Positions 436-31,498 of a stretch of 31,498 bases of DNA are shown here, in pieces. The notes below the pieces were generated by a model. That model saw only the letters and a list, made by a program, of their open reading frames with translations. It did not search any database and was not told where the DNA came from. The position numbers and the translations under genes are program-made. Source of the DNA: a virus; IMG/VR virus record IMGVR_UViG_3300044613_001775, positions 1 to 31,498 of that record, one strand, 5' to 3'. Position 1 is the first letter of the stretch, and each line of letters begins with the position of its first letter.

Positions 436-666
436 ATGGCAACCGAACCACCAAGTAACGACTTCTTCACCGGGCTATCTGGCTTTCTCTCAAGTACCTT
501 CGGCTGGTTATCAACCGTTATTATTGGCATCTTCGGGGGCGGCAAATTGCACCAAAGAATAGTACAACTTGAAAAGGACTCGGAGGGACTTAGCGGTCTC
601 GCCGTTCAAGTGGCAAAGATAGAGGCGAAGATAGACATTCTCCTCGACGACCGAAAGCGGGGGTAA
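436..666 (+). CDS. Small membrane/coiled-coil protein, lysis-associated
   Basis: The 76-residue protein has a short polar N-terminus, one hydrophobic segment at about residues 9-35 (rich in Gly, Ser, Leu, Ile), then a charged helix at about 38-76 with heptad-like hydrophobic spacing (QRIVQLEKDSEGL, VQVAKIEAKIDILL). This suggests a single-pass membrane protein with a coiled coil. Its place between endolysin and metallophosphoesterase fits a holin accessory, an inner-membrane spanin or a haemolysin-XhlA-like protein, but no signature decides between them. It stops with TAA at 664-666. The next gene lies in the same frame with no standard start codon before its conserved motif, so readthrough into that gene is one possibility. 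The homologue at 30354-30584 differs by one residue (Ile/Leu) in the hydrophobic segment. Confidence 0.7.
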   Translation: MATEPPSNDFFTGLSGFLSSTFGWLSTVIIGIFGGGKLHQRIVQLEKDSEGLSGLAVQVAKIEAKIDILLDDRKRG

Positions 667-669
667 CCC

Positions 670-1533
670 ATCAATAATATCAAGACCACTCTTGAGATAA
701 ACGCAAACCAGCCAAAAGCAAGACTTGGGCTTCTATCAGATCTCCACTTTGGAGCCTCTTGTATGGTCAAGCCAGCCCTCAAGTACGACCTTGAGAGAAT
801 GGCTGCCAGCAACTGCCGAATCGGGATAAACGGGGATGTATTCGACTTCATACTCCCCTCAGACCTTAAACGGTTCGACCTCGACGCTCTTGATCGTGAA
901 CTACTACAAGGTGGCCTTAAACCTATTGATGCCGCAATCGAAATGGCTTACGAGTTCTTAAAGCCCTATGCCCACTTGATAGAGTTTATAGGCATCGGTA
1001 ACCACGAAGCCCACGTCTCCAAGAGGCATCATATAGACGTGATGTCTATCTTGCTTTACCGTCTGAATCAACTCCCAAACGTAGAGATTAAGGCGGGCGG
1101 TTGGTGCGGGTATTGGAACGTGACTCTCAAGAGGCAAACCCGCTTAACGAACTTCTTGATGTATCGGCACCACGGAGCGGGCGGGGCGGCTCCCGTGACC
1201 AAGGGCATCATTGACTTTCAACGTATGTTAGCGTGGCAAGGAGACGTAGACGCACTTTGGATTGGTCACAAGCATAATAAATTCGTTGACCTCGCAACCA
1301 AGATGGAATACCGCACCAAGAGAAACGAGGCGAGAACCAAGCAAGTAACGTGCATTATGACTGGCTCATACCTTAGCACCTACGGAACAGAGGCGGGAAC
1401 CAATCCGAGTTATGCTCAAGCGTGGAATCTTGCCCCTCAACAGTTTGGAGGGGTTATACTTGAATTGTCACAGAGAGAGTTTTATGTCGGCAAAGAGCAG
1501 ACAGTAACCGTACAATGTACGGCTATCTTGTAA
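670..1533 (+). CDS. Calcineurin-like metallophosphoesterase, noncanonical start
   Basis: This is a metal-dependent phosphoesterase. Conserved motifs in order are SDLHFG (metal ligands Asp and His), NGDVFDF (GD motif), GNHEAH (GNHE motif) and WIGHKHNK (GHxH motif). The substrate is unknown; the family includes nucleases such as Mre11/SbcD and protein phosphatases. The first ATG in frame, at 763, falls after SDLHFG and would delete a metal-binding motif. The frame is open upstream only to the TAA at 664-666 and contains no ATG, GTG or TTG. Codons 667-762 show 10 silent and 4 replacement codon changes against the second copy and no indel, so the stretch is translated. I place the start tentatively at the Ile codon at 670 (ATC here, ATT in the other copy), 6 bases after a GGGGG run. 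Readthrough of the preceding TAA is the alternative. Confidence 0.72.
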   Translation: MNNIKTTLEINANQPKARLGLLSDLHFGASCMVKPALKYDLERMAASNCRIGINGDVFDFILPSDLKRFDLDALDRELLQGGLKPIDAAIEMAYEFLKPYAHLIEFIGIGNHEAHVSKRHHIDVMSILLYRLNQLPNVEIKAGGWCGYWNVTLKRQTRLTNFLMYRHHGAGGAAPVTKGIIDFQRMLAWQGDVDALWIGHKHNKFVDLATKMEYRTKRNEARTKQVTCIMTGSYLSTYGTEAGTNPSYAQAWNLAPQQFGGVILELSQREFYVGKEQTVTVQCTAIL

Positions 1534-1545
1534 GGGAACCTAACA

Positions 1546-1734
1546 ATGAATGAACTAGTAAAGAAAATAATTGCCGGGGCTTTGTCCGGCTTTGTATCGG
1601 CGTTTCTCGTTGACCTCAACGCATGGAAAAGCAACGAGGCGATGGAGCACTTCAACTATGCCTTAGCTATCAAAAGATGGTTAGCGGGTGCGGTGAGCGG
1701 AGCCTTGACGGGGCTTGGGTTCGGTCAACTATGA
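1546..1734 (+). CDS. Small two-helix membrane protein, candidate holin
   Basis: The 62-residue protein has two glycine- and alanine-rich hydrophobic segments, at about residues 7-24 and 45-61, separated by a polar loop containing WKSNEAMEHFNY. Size, hairpin topology and position one gene after the endolysin group suit a class II-type holin, which would form membrane lesions to release the endolysin. No family-specific motif is visible, so the function is inferred from topology and context. An AAGGGAA run 7 bases upstream of the ATG could act as a ribosome binding site. The stop overlaps the next start as ATGA. A truncated homologue begins at 31466, with two extra A bases before its ATG. Confidence 0.65.
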   Translation: MNELVKKIIAGALSGFVSAFLVDLNAWKSNEAMEHFNYALAIKRWLAGAVSGALTGLGFGQL

Positions 1735-1945: not shown

Positions 1946-2374
1946 ATGAGCCAAGAAAACCACGGTGAAAACCACGGTCAAGAAAATGAGATGATTCCTC
2001 AGCCTCACGGAGGAGCATTGAGGAACGGTGGAACCAATAGAGGCGGGACGGGCAGACCAAAGAGTGAGATACGCAAGGCTTGTGCTGAGGCTTTCGACAG
2101 CCGAATACCTCGGCTCCTACAGATAATGGATGAGGCAAGCACCCCAGCCGAGTACATGAAGGCTCTTGACCTTTTAGGAAAGTATGGAGGACTCCAACAA
2201 ATTGACGCAACCAGCGGAGACAACCCACTCCAAGGGCTTACCGAATCCGAGCGAATTGAGAGAATTGCTTCGCTCATTAACCTTGCAAGAGCAAGAGGAA
2301 CTGTTGAGCCACCTCCAAGCAATGCCCTTGACGTTCAGCCAATGGTATCAGACTCAGAAGCCGAAGCACTATAG
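1946..2374 (+). CDS. terS: Terminase small subunit
   Basis: The 142-residue protein has a glycine/asparagine-rich disordered N-terminus, then GRPKSEIRKACAEAF, a start typical of small terminase DNA-binding regions. This is followed by a helical middle (IPRLLQIMDEAST, EYMKALDLLGKYGGL) suited to oligomerisation and a tail with LTESERIERIASLINLARARG. The small subunit recognises the packaging site and feeds DNA to the motor. The identification rests on this pattern plus the large subunit next door. Its last 191 bases overlap the large-subunit gene in another frame. Confidence 0.78.
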   Translation: MSQENHGENHGQENEMIPQPHGGALRNGGTNRGGTGRPKSEIRKACAEAFDSRIPRLLQIMDEASTPAEYMKALDLLGKYGGLQQIDATSGDNPLQGLTESERIERIASLINLARARGTVEPPPSNALDVQPMVSDSEAEAL

Positions 2375-3635
2375 TTACCCAAGGCACGTTGAGTACTTGT
2401 GCGAGATCGTAGACAAAACCATAAAAGGCGAGTACCAGAACGTAGCTATCTCCCTTCCACCGGGTCATGGTAAGAGCCAGACCATTACCACGAGGCTTCC
2501 TATTTATTGGGGCATGAGGAACCCACAAGATGCGATTGTGTTCACGGGCTACTCTCAAGACTTCGCCGACCGTAACCTCTCAAGACCCGCTAGAGAGCTT
2601 GCCAAGGAGCTTAACATTCTTGACGAGTCCTCTAATGCGATGAGCGAGTGGAGGTTGACCAACGGTGCGAGATTGGTTGCTCGAGGAGTGGGTTCAGCTC
2701 CAACGGGTATTAACCCCATCTCTCTCTTAGTTTGCGATGACCCCATCAAAGACCGTATGCAAGCCGAGAGCGAGACAGAGAGGAATAATATCTGGGACTG
2801 GTGGACTGGAAGCGTGGTACAACGCTTCTTCCCTCGAACGAAGGCGTTTGTGATTGCTACCCGCTGGCATCATGATGACTTGATTGGACGGCTCAAGGCT
2901 CAAGGTGATGATAGCTGGACGTTTATTAACCTTCCCGCCATTGCAGAAGAGAATGACCCGCTTGGAAGGGCTGAGGGCGAGGCGTTGTGGCCGGAGGTAA
3001 AGCCGTTAAACTTTCTTGAGGCCGTCAGAAGGCAGATGGGAGAATACAACTTTCAAGCCCTCTTCCAAGGTAACCCAAGCCTTCGAGACGGTGCAATATT
3101 CAAGGTAGACAAGGCGAGCTTCATAGATGAGCGGGAACTACCGCCGATGGTTGAGCGGGTGAGGAAGTGGGACGTGGCAGCGAGTAGCGGAAAGGGTGAC
3201 TATACGGCGGGTGTACTGGTAGGCAAGGATGCCAACGGGCGGTATTATGTCCTCGACGTTCAACGCTTTCAAGAAGGAACCGATGCGAGAAATCAACGGA
3301 TGTTAGCCACCGCAAGACAAGACGGGGTATCGGTTCGGGTGGTGGTTCCCGAAGATCCCGGCTCGGCGGGTAAAGACCAAGCCCTCGCTTACCTTCGGCT
3401 CTTGAGTGGCTACAATGCCAAAGCGGTAAGGGAGACGGGGAGTAAGGAGACCAGAGCGGACGGTATTGCATCACAATTCAACGGTGGTAACGTCTCTCTT
3501 ATTAGGGCTAACTGGAACACCGCCTTTATAGAAGAGCTTAGGCAATTCCCCACGGGCAAGCATGATGACCAAGTGGACGCTTTAGCGGGAGCCTTTAATG
3601 AATTGGTGAGTAGCAATAATGTTTGGAATTGGTAA
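2184..3635 (+). CDS. terL: Terminase large subunit
   Basis: This is the 483-residue packaging motor and nuclease. The ATPase half carries the Walker A motif LPPGHGKSQ (about residues 91-99) and the Walker B motif LLVCDDP (about 180-186). The RNase H-like nuclease half carries acidic residues in KWDVAAS (about 328-333), GDYTAG (about 337-342) and KHDDQVDALAGAF near the C-terminus. The start at 2184 has AGGAAAG just upstream and includes an N-terminal helix (ELRELLRSLTLQEQEELLSH) of a kind common in large terminases. A shorter start at 2322 would keep every catalytic motif and reduce the gene overlap to about 53 bases. It is followed after 3 bases by the portal gene. Confidence 0.95.
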   Translation: MEDSNKLTQPAETTHSKGLPNPSELRELLRSLTLQEQEELLSHLQAMPLTFSQWYQTQKPKHYSYPRHVEYLCEIVDKTIKGEYQNVAISLPPGHGKSQTITTRLPIYWGMRNPQDAIVFTGYSQDFADRNLSRPARELAKELNILDESSNAMSEWRLTNGARLVARGVGSAPTGINPISLLVCDDPIKDRMQAESETERNNIWDWWTGSVVQRFFPRTKAFVIATRWHHDDLIGRLKAQGDDSWTFINLPAIAEENDPLGRAEGEALWPEVKPLNFLEAVRRQMGEYNFQALFQGNPSLRDGAIFKVDKASFIDERELPPMVERVRKWDVAASSGKGDYTAGVLVGKDANGRYYVLDVQRFQEGTDARNQRMLATARQDGVSVRVVVPEDPGSAGKDQALAYLRLLSGYNAKAVRETGSKETRADGIASQFNGGNVSLIRANWNTAFIEELRQFPTGKHDDQVDALAGAFNELVSSNNVWNW

Positions 3636-3638
3636 CGC

Positions 3639-4994
3639 ATGAAGATTTTTGGACTAGAAATTAGAGCAGTCGGGCGGGAGCCTCGGAACCGAGACCAACA
3701 ATTTACGGGGCTACCCTTTGTCGGTGGAACCTCGACAATGGGTGGCTACCTCCGATACGGGGCAACTGACCGCAACTGGCGAACCGAAGCGGGACAAATT
3801 GAAAGCAATTCCACGGTAGCTATCGGACTTGGTAAGATTGCTCAGAAGGTGGCTCAAGCCAAACTCACCGTTAAAACAATAAACCCAGACGGAAGTTACT
3901 ACTACAAGCCAGACCCACGTTTATTCTCTTTTACAGCTCCGATGCCGGGGCTCGATGAGGCAACCATACTTAAAGCGATTGCTTGCCCTCTCAAAGTGTA
4001 CGGCAATGCCTACCTTCTCAAGAGACGAAGTAAGACGGGGTTCTTGATTGGCTTGGCTCCGCTCATGCCTTGGCAAGTCGTGCCGAAGTCAGATATTCAC
4101 GTTGACGGTACACCAAACAACGGCAATGAGCTTATCACCCGATACCAGATAACCCCTTACGGAGGCGGTGCGATGTTCTACGCCGCTCCTTCTGAGATTA
4201 TCCATTTTAGAGACGGCATGGTAGACGTGGCAAACCCAGCCCTTGGGATGTCCCCATTGATGGCCGCCCTTCGCCAAGTGGTCACCGATAACGAGGCGAG
4301 CAACTACGCCGCTACCTTGATGACCAATATGGGTATCCCCGGCGTTATCTTCTCGCCGAAAGACCCTAATGCAATGGAGCCAACGCAAGAACAGCGGAAG
4401 TCTATGCGTGATCGTTGGCAGAGCTTCAGCCGTGACCGAAGAGGGCAAGCAATGGATTTGCCCGGAGCGTTCGAGATTACACGGGTTGCAATGTCACCAA
4501 CCGACATCAAAGCCATTGAGCAAAAGGTGCATACAATGACCGAGCTTCTTGCCTCGCTCGGCGTTGACCCGATGATTGTTGGACTTCCGAGCGATTCCAA
4601 GACATATAACAACATCTCAGAAGCCAGAGAGATATTTATTGAGGACACAATTTTATCCTTGCTCTCCGTCATCTCGGCGACCCTTGACAAGGCGTTTGCC
4701 GATGAGGGGCTAGGGCTTAAACCGAATGAGTTTCTCGCCTTCGACCCAAGCGTTTACCGTGAGCTCGATGAGGACATCACCGCCAAGTACACAAGGGCAG
4801 AATTGGCGTTCAAGGCTGGAGCCTCTACAAGAGGTGAGTTCAGAAAGGCTCTCGGATTCCAAGAAGACTTAGCAGACCCTCGAACGTGGTTCGATATGAA
4901 CGCACTAGCCTCACCGCTCCCAGCCTCACCCACTAGCAAGCGATACGATAAAGCCCAGTTAAGAAGGCTCGAAGACATCCAACTCGAAAGCTAA
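3639..4994 (+). CDS. Portal protein, HK97 family
   Basis: The 451-residue protein matches the HK97-type phage portal family. Such portals form the dodecameric ring at the capsid vertex through which DNA passes and to which the terminase docks. Recognisable stretches are the PLKVYGNAYLLK region, PWQVVPKSDIHV, APSEIIHFRDGMVDVANPALGMSPL and the helix with GVPGVIF-like GIPGVIF. The length is normal for the family, and the C-terminal 60 residues look disordered. It is placed between terminase and minor head protein, the canonical order. Its stop overlaps the next start as TAATG. Confidence 0.95.
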   Translation: MKIFGLEIRAVGREPRNRDQQFTGLPFVGGTSTMGGYLRYGATDRNWRTEAGQIESNSTVAIGLGKIAQKVAQAKLTVKTINPDGSYYYKPDPRLFSFTAPMPGLDEATILKAIACPLKVYGNAYLLKRRSKTGFLIGLAPLMPWQVVPKSDIHVDGTPNNGNELITRYQITPYGGGAMFYAAPSEIIHFRDGMVDVANPALGMSPLMAALRQVVTDNEASNYAATLMTNMGIPGVIFSPKDPNAMEPTQEQRKSMRDRWQSFSRDRRGQAMDLPGAFEITRVAMSPTDIKAIEQKVHTMTELLASLGVDPMIVGLPSDSKTYNNISEAREIFIEDTILSLLSVISATLDKAFADEGLGLKPNEFLAFDPSVYRELDEDITAKYTRAELAFKAGASTRGEFRKALGFQEDLADPRTWFDMNALASPLPASPTSKRYDKAQLRRLEDIQLES

Positions 4995-29812: not shown

Positions 29813-30349
29813 ATGAATAACGCCCAAGCAATTACCGAGGTTCGAGCTATCTTGAATCGGCGTTATCAAAATTACAACCAGCTTCCCAACTCAGAGCGGG
29901 TACTTCTTGCCGCCGCCGTTCTTGCCGATGACATCCAAGTTAGAGAGGTTGGCGGGAATAATAATGGTGAGTGGGTTGAGGCGATACTTGAGGGTGTCAA
30001 GTTAGGCGAAGGGTATCCATGGTGTGCCGCCTTCATTGAGTTTTGTTGCGATGTAGCGGGGTTTACTGCTGGCCCCACCGACCGAGCCTCTGCCGCCGTT
30101 GATTCATGGCTGACGTGGGCAAGGATGGAAGGGCGGGTAACAAGCAATCCCAAGCGTGGAGACTTATGCCTCTGGAAGCGTTCAACGGGTAACCATATTG
30201 GTATAGTCACCGATTTGACGATCACGAGCGTGATGAGTATTGAGGGCAACACCACGCCGGGAGCGACTGGCAATCAGCGAGACGGTGGAGGGTGCTATCG
30301 ACGTACACGCCTCAGAAACTCTTGGACGCACTTTATTTCACTAGGATAA
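29813..30349 (+). CDS. CHAP-type endolysin, complete copy
   Basis: This is the complete 178-residue peptidoglycan hydrolase. The N-terminal helical region (about 1-45) precedes the papain-like fold with Cys71 in YPWCAAF, His128 in TGNHIGIV and the Glu144-Gly-Asn146 segment, the usual Cys-His-polar active site of CHAP amidases/endopeptidases. There is no signal peptide, so release depends on a holin, and no separate wall-binding domain. I chose ATG 29813; a GTG three codons upstream is in frame but overlaps a TATAGT. It opens the late block, which is unusual since lysis genes are commonly late-distal. A truncated strain copy is at 1-428. Confidence 0.82.
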   Translation: MNNAQAITEVRAILNRRYQNYNQLPNSERVLLAAAVLADDIQVREVGGNNNGEWVEAILEGVKLGEGYPWCAAFIEFCCDVAGFTAGPTDRASAAVDSWLTWARMEGRVTSNPKRGDLCLWKRSTGNHIGIVTDLTITSVMSIEGNTTPGATGNQRDGGGCYRRTRLRNSWTHFISLG

Positions 30350-30353
30350 TCTT

Positions 30354-30584
30354 ATGGCAACCGAACCACCAAGTAACGACTTCTTCACCGGCTTATCTGG
30401 CTTTCTCTCAAGTACCTTCGGCTGGTTATCAACCGTTATTCTAGGCATCTTCGGGGGTGGCAAATTGCACCAGCGAATAGTACAACTTGAAAAGGATTCG
30501 GAGGGGCTTTCTGGTCTCGCCGTACAAGTGGCAAAGATAGAGGCGAAGATAGACATTCTCCTCGACGACCGTAAGCGGGGGTAA
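30354..30584 (+). CDS. Small membrane/coiled-coil protein, second copy
   Basis: The 76-residue product is identical to that at 436-666 except for one Ile/Leu difference in the hydrophobic segment. It starts 4 bases after the endolysin stop, whereas the left copy has a 7-base gap. It has the same single hydrophobic segment followed by a coiled-coil-like helix. It ends TAA, in frame with the following metallophosphoesterase and with no standard start codon between them. Confidence 0.7.
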   Translation: MATEPPSNDFFTGLSGFLSSTFGWLSTVILGIFGGGKLHQRIVQLEKDSEGLSGLAVQVAKIEAKIDILLDDRKRG

Positions 30585-30587
30585 CCC

Positions 30588-31451
30588 ATTAATAATATCA
30601 AGACAACTCTTGAGATAACAGCCAAAGAGCCAAAAGTCCGACTTGGACTACTTTCTGACCTCCACTTTGGAGCCTCTTGCATGGTCAAGCCAGCACTCAA
30701 GTACGACCTCGAGAGAATGGCTGCCAGCAACTGCCGAATCGGGATTAACGGCGACGTGTTTGATTTTATTTTGCCGAGCGACCTTAAACGATTCGACCTC
30801 GACGCTCTTGATCGTGAACTCCTCCAAGGCGGACTTAAACCCATTGATGCCGCAATCGAAATGGCTTACGAGTTCTTGAAGCCGTATGCCCATTTAATTG
30901 AGTTTATAGGCATTGGCAACCACGAAGCCCACGTCTCCAAGCGACACCATATAGACGTGATGAGCATCTTGCTATACCGCTTGAATCAACTACCTAACGT
31001 AGAGGTTAAGGCGGGAGGGTGGTGTGGTTATTGGAACGTGACACTCAAGAGGCAAACCCGCTTAACAAACTTTCTCATGTACAGACACCACGGGGCGGGC
31101 GGGGCGGCTCCAGTTACTAAGGGAATCATTGACTTTCAGAGAATGTTAGCTTGGCAAGGGGACGTAGACGCCCTCTGGATTGGTCACAAGCACAACAAGT
31201 TTATTGACTTGGCCACCAAGATGGAATACCGCACCAAGAGGAACGAGGCACGTACCAAACAAGTCACTTGCATTATGACTGGAAGCTACCTCTCGACCTA
31301 TGGAACAGAGGCGGGAACCAATCCGAGTTATGCTCAAGCGTGGAATCTTGCCCCTCAGCAGTTTGGAGGGGTTATACTTGAATTGTCACAGAGAGAGTTT
31401 TATGTCGGCAAAGAGCAGACAGTAACCGTACAATGTACGGCTATCTTGTAA
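30588..31451 (+). CDS. Metallophosphoesterase, second copy, noncanonical start
   Basis: The product from the first in-frame ATG (30681) has 256 residues and differs from the left copy at only two positions (Ile/Val and Val/Ile). The first metal-binding motif SDLHFG lies before that ATG, encoded by codons that differ silently from the left copy. The candidate start at 30588 is ATT, where the other copy has ATC. The other motifs, NGDVFDF, GNHEAH and GHKHNK, are intact. The strong silent-to-replacement bias shows purifying selection on the enzyme. Confidence 0.72.
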   Translation: MNNIKTTLEITAKEPKVRLGLLSDLHFGASCMVKPALKYDLERMAASNCRIGINGDVFDFILPSDLKRFDLDALDRELLQGGLKPIDAAIEMAYEFLKPYAHLIEFIGIGNHEAHVSKRHHIDVMSILLYRLNQLPNVEVKAGGWCGYWNVTLKRQTRLTNFLMYRHHGAGGAAPVTKGIIDFQRMLAWQGDVDALWIGHKHNKFIDLATKMEYRTKRNEARTKQVTCIMTGSYLSTYGTEAGTNPSYAQAWNLAPQQFGGVILELSQREFYVGKEQTVTVQCTAIL

Positions 31452-31465
31452 GGGAACCTAACAAA

Positions 31466-31498
31466 ATGAATGAACTATTAAAGAAAATAATTGCCGGG
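31466..31498 (+). CDS. Candidate holin, 3'-truncated by window end
   Basis: The first 11 codons (MNELLKKIIAG) of the small membrane protein are present, with one Val/Leu change from the copy at 1546. The leader here has two extra A bases before the ATG. Confidence 0.6.
   Translation, partial: MNELLKKIIAG

Follow-up and report, generated by a model that had tools for sequence, protein, structure and literature searches.

A phage metallophosphoesterase gene probably initiated at an AUC/AUU codon behind a strong Shine-Dalgarno sequence

To our knowledge, very few natural genes are started at AUU or AUC. A study of 61,358 reconstructed ancestral AUG starts retrieved one switch to AUU (PMC5622118). 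The infC gene starts with ATT in Escherichia coli and with ATC in Streptomyces (PMC5472188), and with AUA in Staphylococcus aureus, where AUU/AUA starts with extended Shine-Dalgarno sequences (SDs) reach about 10% of the AUG yield in reporters (PMC13009471). Proteogenomics of the cyanobacterium Nostoc has also revealed ATT and ATA starts (PMC8557916). Starts of the AUC/AUU type are rare, and they normally keep protein output low. We describe here a metallophosphoesterase (MPE) gene located in a stretch of 31,498 nt of viral DNA, analysed as a whole and referred to as “the window”. From sequence comparison, we consider it highly probable (roughly 0.9) that this gene is started by fMet at the AUC/AUU codon 670/30588 behind a strong SD; this initiation is probably coupled to translation of the upstream gene, and output is likely low.

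The gene belongs to a cassette with the order CHAP endolysin, 76-aa membrane/coiled-coil protein, MPE and 62-aa holin-like protein, followed by terminase and head genes (Table 1). The ends of the contig (1-1578 vs ~29921-31498) are 90% identical at the nt level, 7 positions being gapped, as expected from the mixed-strain circular closure of a unit genome of ~29.9 kb. Assembly of a circular genome out of a mixed population accounts for the second strain copy of the MPE gene at the far end, and the record should not be taken for a genome with two cassettes; the first-copy CHAP endolysin is truncated (3-428). Pfam and PHROG searches with the 76-aa protein gave no match, and it is XhlA-like by appearance only; the last codons of its gene, CGG GGG TAA, contain the SD of the MPE gene. 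For the terminase (2184-3635; a Microcystis phage, 47% identity) and the portal (3639-4994; 27%), the nearest named relatives belong to phages of Microcystis and Synechococcus, which weakly suggests a freshwater cyanobacterial host.

Table 1. Position of the features of the MPE locus in the window.
Feature	Position	Strand	Basis
Membrane/coiled-coil protein, 76 aa, lysis cassette	436..666	+	ORF list; homologues in the same place in relatives
Shine-Dalgarno GGGGGU; GGGG and the next T invariant in 13 sequences	659..664	+	Duplex energy
TAA stop ending the upstream gene (TAG/TGA in relatives)	664..666	+	
CCC between stop and start, invariant in 13 sequences	667..669	+	
Putative MPE start codon, ATC (second copy: ATT, 30588-30590)	670..672	+	Alignment with relatives' starts
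Calcineurin-like metallophosphoesterase, 287 aa from the putative start ATC 670	670..1533	+	PHROG 7339; predicted fold
Putative holin-like membrane protein, 62 aa, downstream of MPE	1546..1734	+	ORF list; homologues downstream of MPE in relatives
CHAP-domain endolysin ahead of the second copy of the cassette	29813..30349	+	Pfam CHAP; PHROG endolysin
Second, strain-variant MPE copy, start ATT	30588..31451	+	Versus first copy: 98% aa, 88% nt identity

The MPE carries the metal motifs SDLHFG, NGDVFD, GNHE, RHHG and IGHKHN, and the motif residues (D-x-H, GD-x2-D, GNH-E/D, GH-x-H) are invariant in 23 sequences. It matches the DNA repair exonuclease family PHROG 7339 (E 6e-17); Pfam Metallophos was found in 4 of the 23 members, the window protein itself not being among them, and a PDB sequence search gave no match. 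The predicted fold matches the archaeal PolD exonuclease subunit and the Ap4A hydrolase SapH, and motifs and predicted fold together place the product among the calcineurin-like metallophosphoesterases. In the AlphaFold model (mean pLDDT 83; 90-94 over residues 1-30) strands occupy residues 4-9 and 16-22, just ahead of the D-x-H motif; residues 1-30 are thus predicted to form two confident core strands leading to this metal site. Two distant relatives (L036 and L032, in archaeal and Planctomycetota metagenome bins) show a canonical ATG near the expected start. Inside the gene, the DLHFGA codons contain CTCCACTTTGGAG (742-754), a hairpin of 5 bp that is possibly an RNA feature or chance; just 4 fourfold codons, GGA 751 among them, are invariant in the 13 sequences of the clade described below. 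The run GCGGCTCC at 1186-1193 (Ala-Ala-Pro) is nucleotide-invariant in the same 13 sequences, including two fourfold Ala codons, and thus shows conservation at silent sites.

The MPE frame is open from 667, directly after the TAA at 664-666, to the TAA at 1531-1533, and its first ATG/GTG/TTG is the ATG at 763, downstream of SDLHFG. The preliminary description of this DNA had noted that no such codon stands between the upstream stop and SDLHFG, neither in this frame (667-1533) nor in the second copy (30585-31451), and both statements hold. Its count of the differences between the copies over 667-762 (10 silent and 4 replacement codons, no indel) is exact; read in the other two frames, the changes become 0-1 silent vs 10-11 replacement, and stops are present. 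The pN/pS ratio is 0.076 for codons 2-31 vs 0.057 for the rest of the gene (10 close sequences). The silent excess, the pN/pS values and the stops in the other frames agree with the earlier claim of translation and, judged by this codon-level constraint, the stretch upstream of ATG 763 is clearly translated. The arrangement recurs on independent contigs (13 distinct sequences, 12 samples), which rules out sequencing error. Gene finders limited to ATG/GTG/TTG would drop the first metal-binding site of the enzyme.

Searches of IMG/VR yielded 18 and then 29 related loci, and querying IMG/VR further with L011, L013 and L016 added no new member to the clade having an Ile codon at the start. This clade, a group of freshwater phages, comprises 13 distinct sequences (66-92% nt identity, 12 samples), all of them reading GGGG-T[AA/AG/GA]-CCC-AT[C/T]-AA. 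By alignment, the Ile codon is homologous to canonical starts of relatives, which have ATG (L017, MYNIRTEF; L024, MNNIRTEI) or TTG (L016, LNNIQTTF; L021-L023 and L026, LKHFVSEF) at this codon. L024 keeps the clade layout with ATG (AAAGGGGTAG-TGC-ATG-AAC-AAC-ATC), GGGGTAG standing directly before TGC-ATG; two IMG/VR scans that left the start codon free turned up no canonical start among clade members in this context. On the tree, outgroups included, the start codon changes state at least 7 times. The start-aligned Ile codon is ATC or ATT in 13/13 clade sequences and ATA in none, though 15 of the 16 aa-invariant Ile sites have ATA in one or more of these sequences (30% overall); because of this avoidance, the codon can be said to behave as a start. 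The gene thus shows what is expected of a natural AUU/AUC start, namely no in-frame canonical start, homologous canonical starts and an SD at proper spacing. The alignment of this locus had been proposed as a check in the preliminary description, which asked about the Ile codon, the G run and the TAA: the first is kept (as ATC/ATT), the second is kept as GGGG but not always as five G, and the third is not kept, TAG and TGA also being found.

The SD duplex has an energy of -10.0 kcal/mol at 659..664, and of -10.7 for CAGGGGUGA in L011/L013/L014, as computed with a 16S tail that may not be the host's; deeper relatives carry AGGGGUGA in place of GGGGGU. The GGGGG run ends 6 nt before ATC. Only one listed start of the phage has a stronger SD, and of positions drawn at random from the window just 4% attain -8. 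The SDs of relatives with canonical starts are mostly weaker (-2.0 to -8.4), the distant L018 (-11.6) being the exception. That a strong SD makes up for a weak start is no more than suggestive here, because few independent lineages were sampled; such a pairing has been described for the AUU/AUA starts of S. aureus (PMC13009471). Mechanistically, an SD situated within the last codons and the stop of the upstream gene would set the ribosome on the weak AUC/AUU codon, where the initiator tRNA would be used. Ribosomes finishing the upstream gene would be well placed to restart at the Ile codon, and such a restart is plausible because the stop lies 3 bases upstream and overlaps the SD; re-initiation in E. 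coli is favoured by a short distance and an SD (PMC2268962). Output of the enzyme would then be low and coupled, the same messenger yielding much more lysis protein, and the enzyme is likely scarce. Relatives use a canonical start for the same gene, AUC/AUU being kept throughout this one phage clade.

The CCC preceding the start does not behave as a translated codon, because it is invariant while all 7 invariant Pro codons of the MPE vary (two to four codons each); fourfold sites also vary widely (62/66) in the 13 sequences, and 4/66 are invariant. A GGG-GUAA/GUGA/GUAG-CCC mini-hairpin of -3.2 to -3.7 kcal/mol could be formed over the SD, the GUAA form of the window having about -3.5 kcal/mol. 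It could mask the SD as long as the upstream gene is not being translated, which would explain the invariant CCC; the mini-hairpin is itself invariant, so it offers no covariation to read, and an Rfam search at the site found no family. Other candidates considered for this site were rejected: a competing fold over the SD in close sequences (UCUCCUCG...CGGGGG) is not kept in L011 or L013/L014, and an antisense ORF from the CAT in CCCATC, which could have explained the constant CCC, has only 21 codons in most close sequences and a length that varies elsewhere.

Regarding why the Ile start is kept, we tentatively suggest, at somewhat short of even odds, that AUC/AUU is actively maintained as a throttle, together with the stop-overlapping SD and the GGG-GURR-CCC hairpin, the enzyme being made only by ribosomes that finish the upstream gene, at a low set ratio. 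A neutral relic would also place translation at the same codon, and differs from the throttle in the reason for its maintenance: one ancestral ATG-to-ATC change would have been tolerated thanks to the strong SD, with no regulatory meaning. This explanation is possible if rather doubtful. The hypothesis that the Ile start arose only once is not rejected (p-AU 0.34), and C/T transitions are the only alternation seen in the clade; however, ATG is one base away and has been restored in no member despite high silent divergence, and most relatives have a weaker SD.

The preliminary description had left two options for the missing start, initiation at the Ile codon and readthrough of the TAA. The first is strongly supported by the relatives' ATG/TTG at the same codon, the SD and the absence of ATA; the second, by which some ribosomes would pass the stop to produce a membrane/coiled-coil-phosphoesterase fusion, is very improbable. 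Upstream gene, stop, CCC and MPE do share a frame in 13/13 clade sequences and in L024, so that readthrough would be physically possible throughout the clade. Nonetheless, TAA, TAG and TGA all occur at the upstream stop, L024 combines the same in-frame layout with ATG, and CCC would have to be a Pro codon that never varies, unlike the Pro codons and fourfold sites counted above; a shared frame followed by post-stop codons evolving as codons is therefore not what is found. In L016, L017 and L021/L023, where the start is canonical, the upstream gene terminates out of frame with the MPE, so that no fusion is possible in these lineages. Since stops change freely and upstream frames differ, readthrough is not how this gene family is expressed, and it would leave the strong SD and the ATA avoidance unexplained.

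A start at ATG 763, with the conserved stretch before it as an untranslated region or a remnant, has the merit of using the first canonical start in frame, and is more improbable still: the part upstream is under nearly the same coding constraint as the remainder of the gene, the relatives' canonical starts sit at the Ile position, L017, L021 and L024 have Leu or Gln in place of Met 763, and, according to the model, the product would be without both core strands and the D-x-H site. Frameshifting or transcript slippage into the MPE frame at the five-G run directly before the stop can be practically dismissed, since the frame shared up- and downstream requires a net shift of 0 or 3, both single-base shifts hit stops within ~12 codons (window sequence) and the G run is down to four in the deeper members of the clade.

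When other genes were screened for conservation ahead of their first canonical start, mainly overlaps with neighbours came up and, by inspection, no clear second case. Having kept AUC/AUU through high silent divergence, and with canonical-start relatives at hand, the MPE clade provides a clean natural case for studying what selects for such starts and to what extent a strong SD can make up for them.

Initiation of the MPE at AUC/AUU can be compared with several described systems. Phage T4 gene 26 also has a phage product initiated at AUU, from an internal start that gives a shorter second product, whereas the codon proposed for the MPE would be the only start of its gene. The conserved Ile-codon start is a feature shared with infC, encoding IF3, where the codon serves IF3 autoregulation; the MPE is instead an enzyme of a phage lysis cassette, and its SD overlaps the upstream stop. 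In S. aureus, cvfC1 (AUU) and ccpN (AUA) likewise combine rare Ile-codon starts with extended, strong SDs, but they are cellular genes, and the accessible part of the source notes no overlap between their SDs and an upstream stop (PMC13009471). Lastly, the GTC start of Streptomyces sigR is another non-canonical start, one that keeps a protein scarce relative to its partner (PMC5472188), as may be the case for the MPE, although sigR uses a different codon and encodes a cellular regulator.
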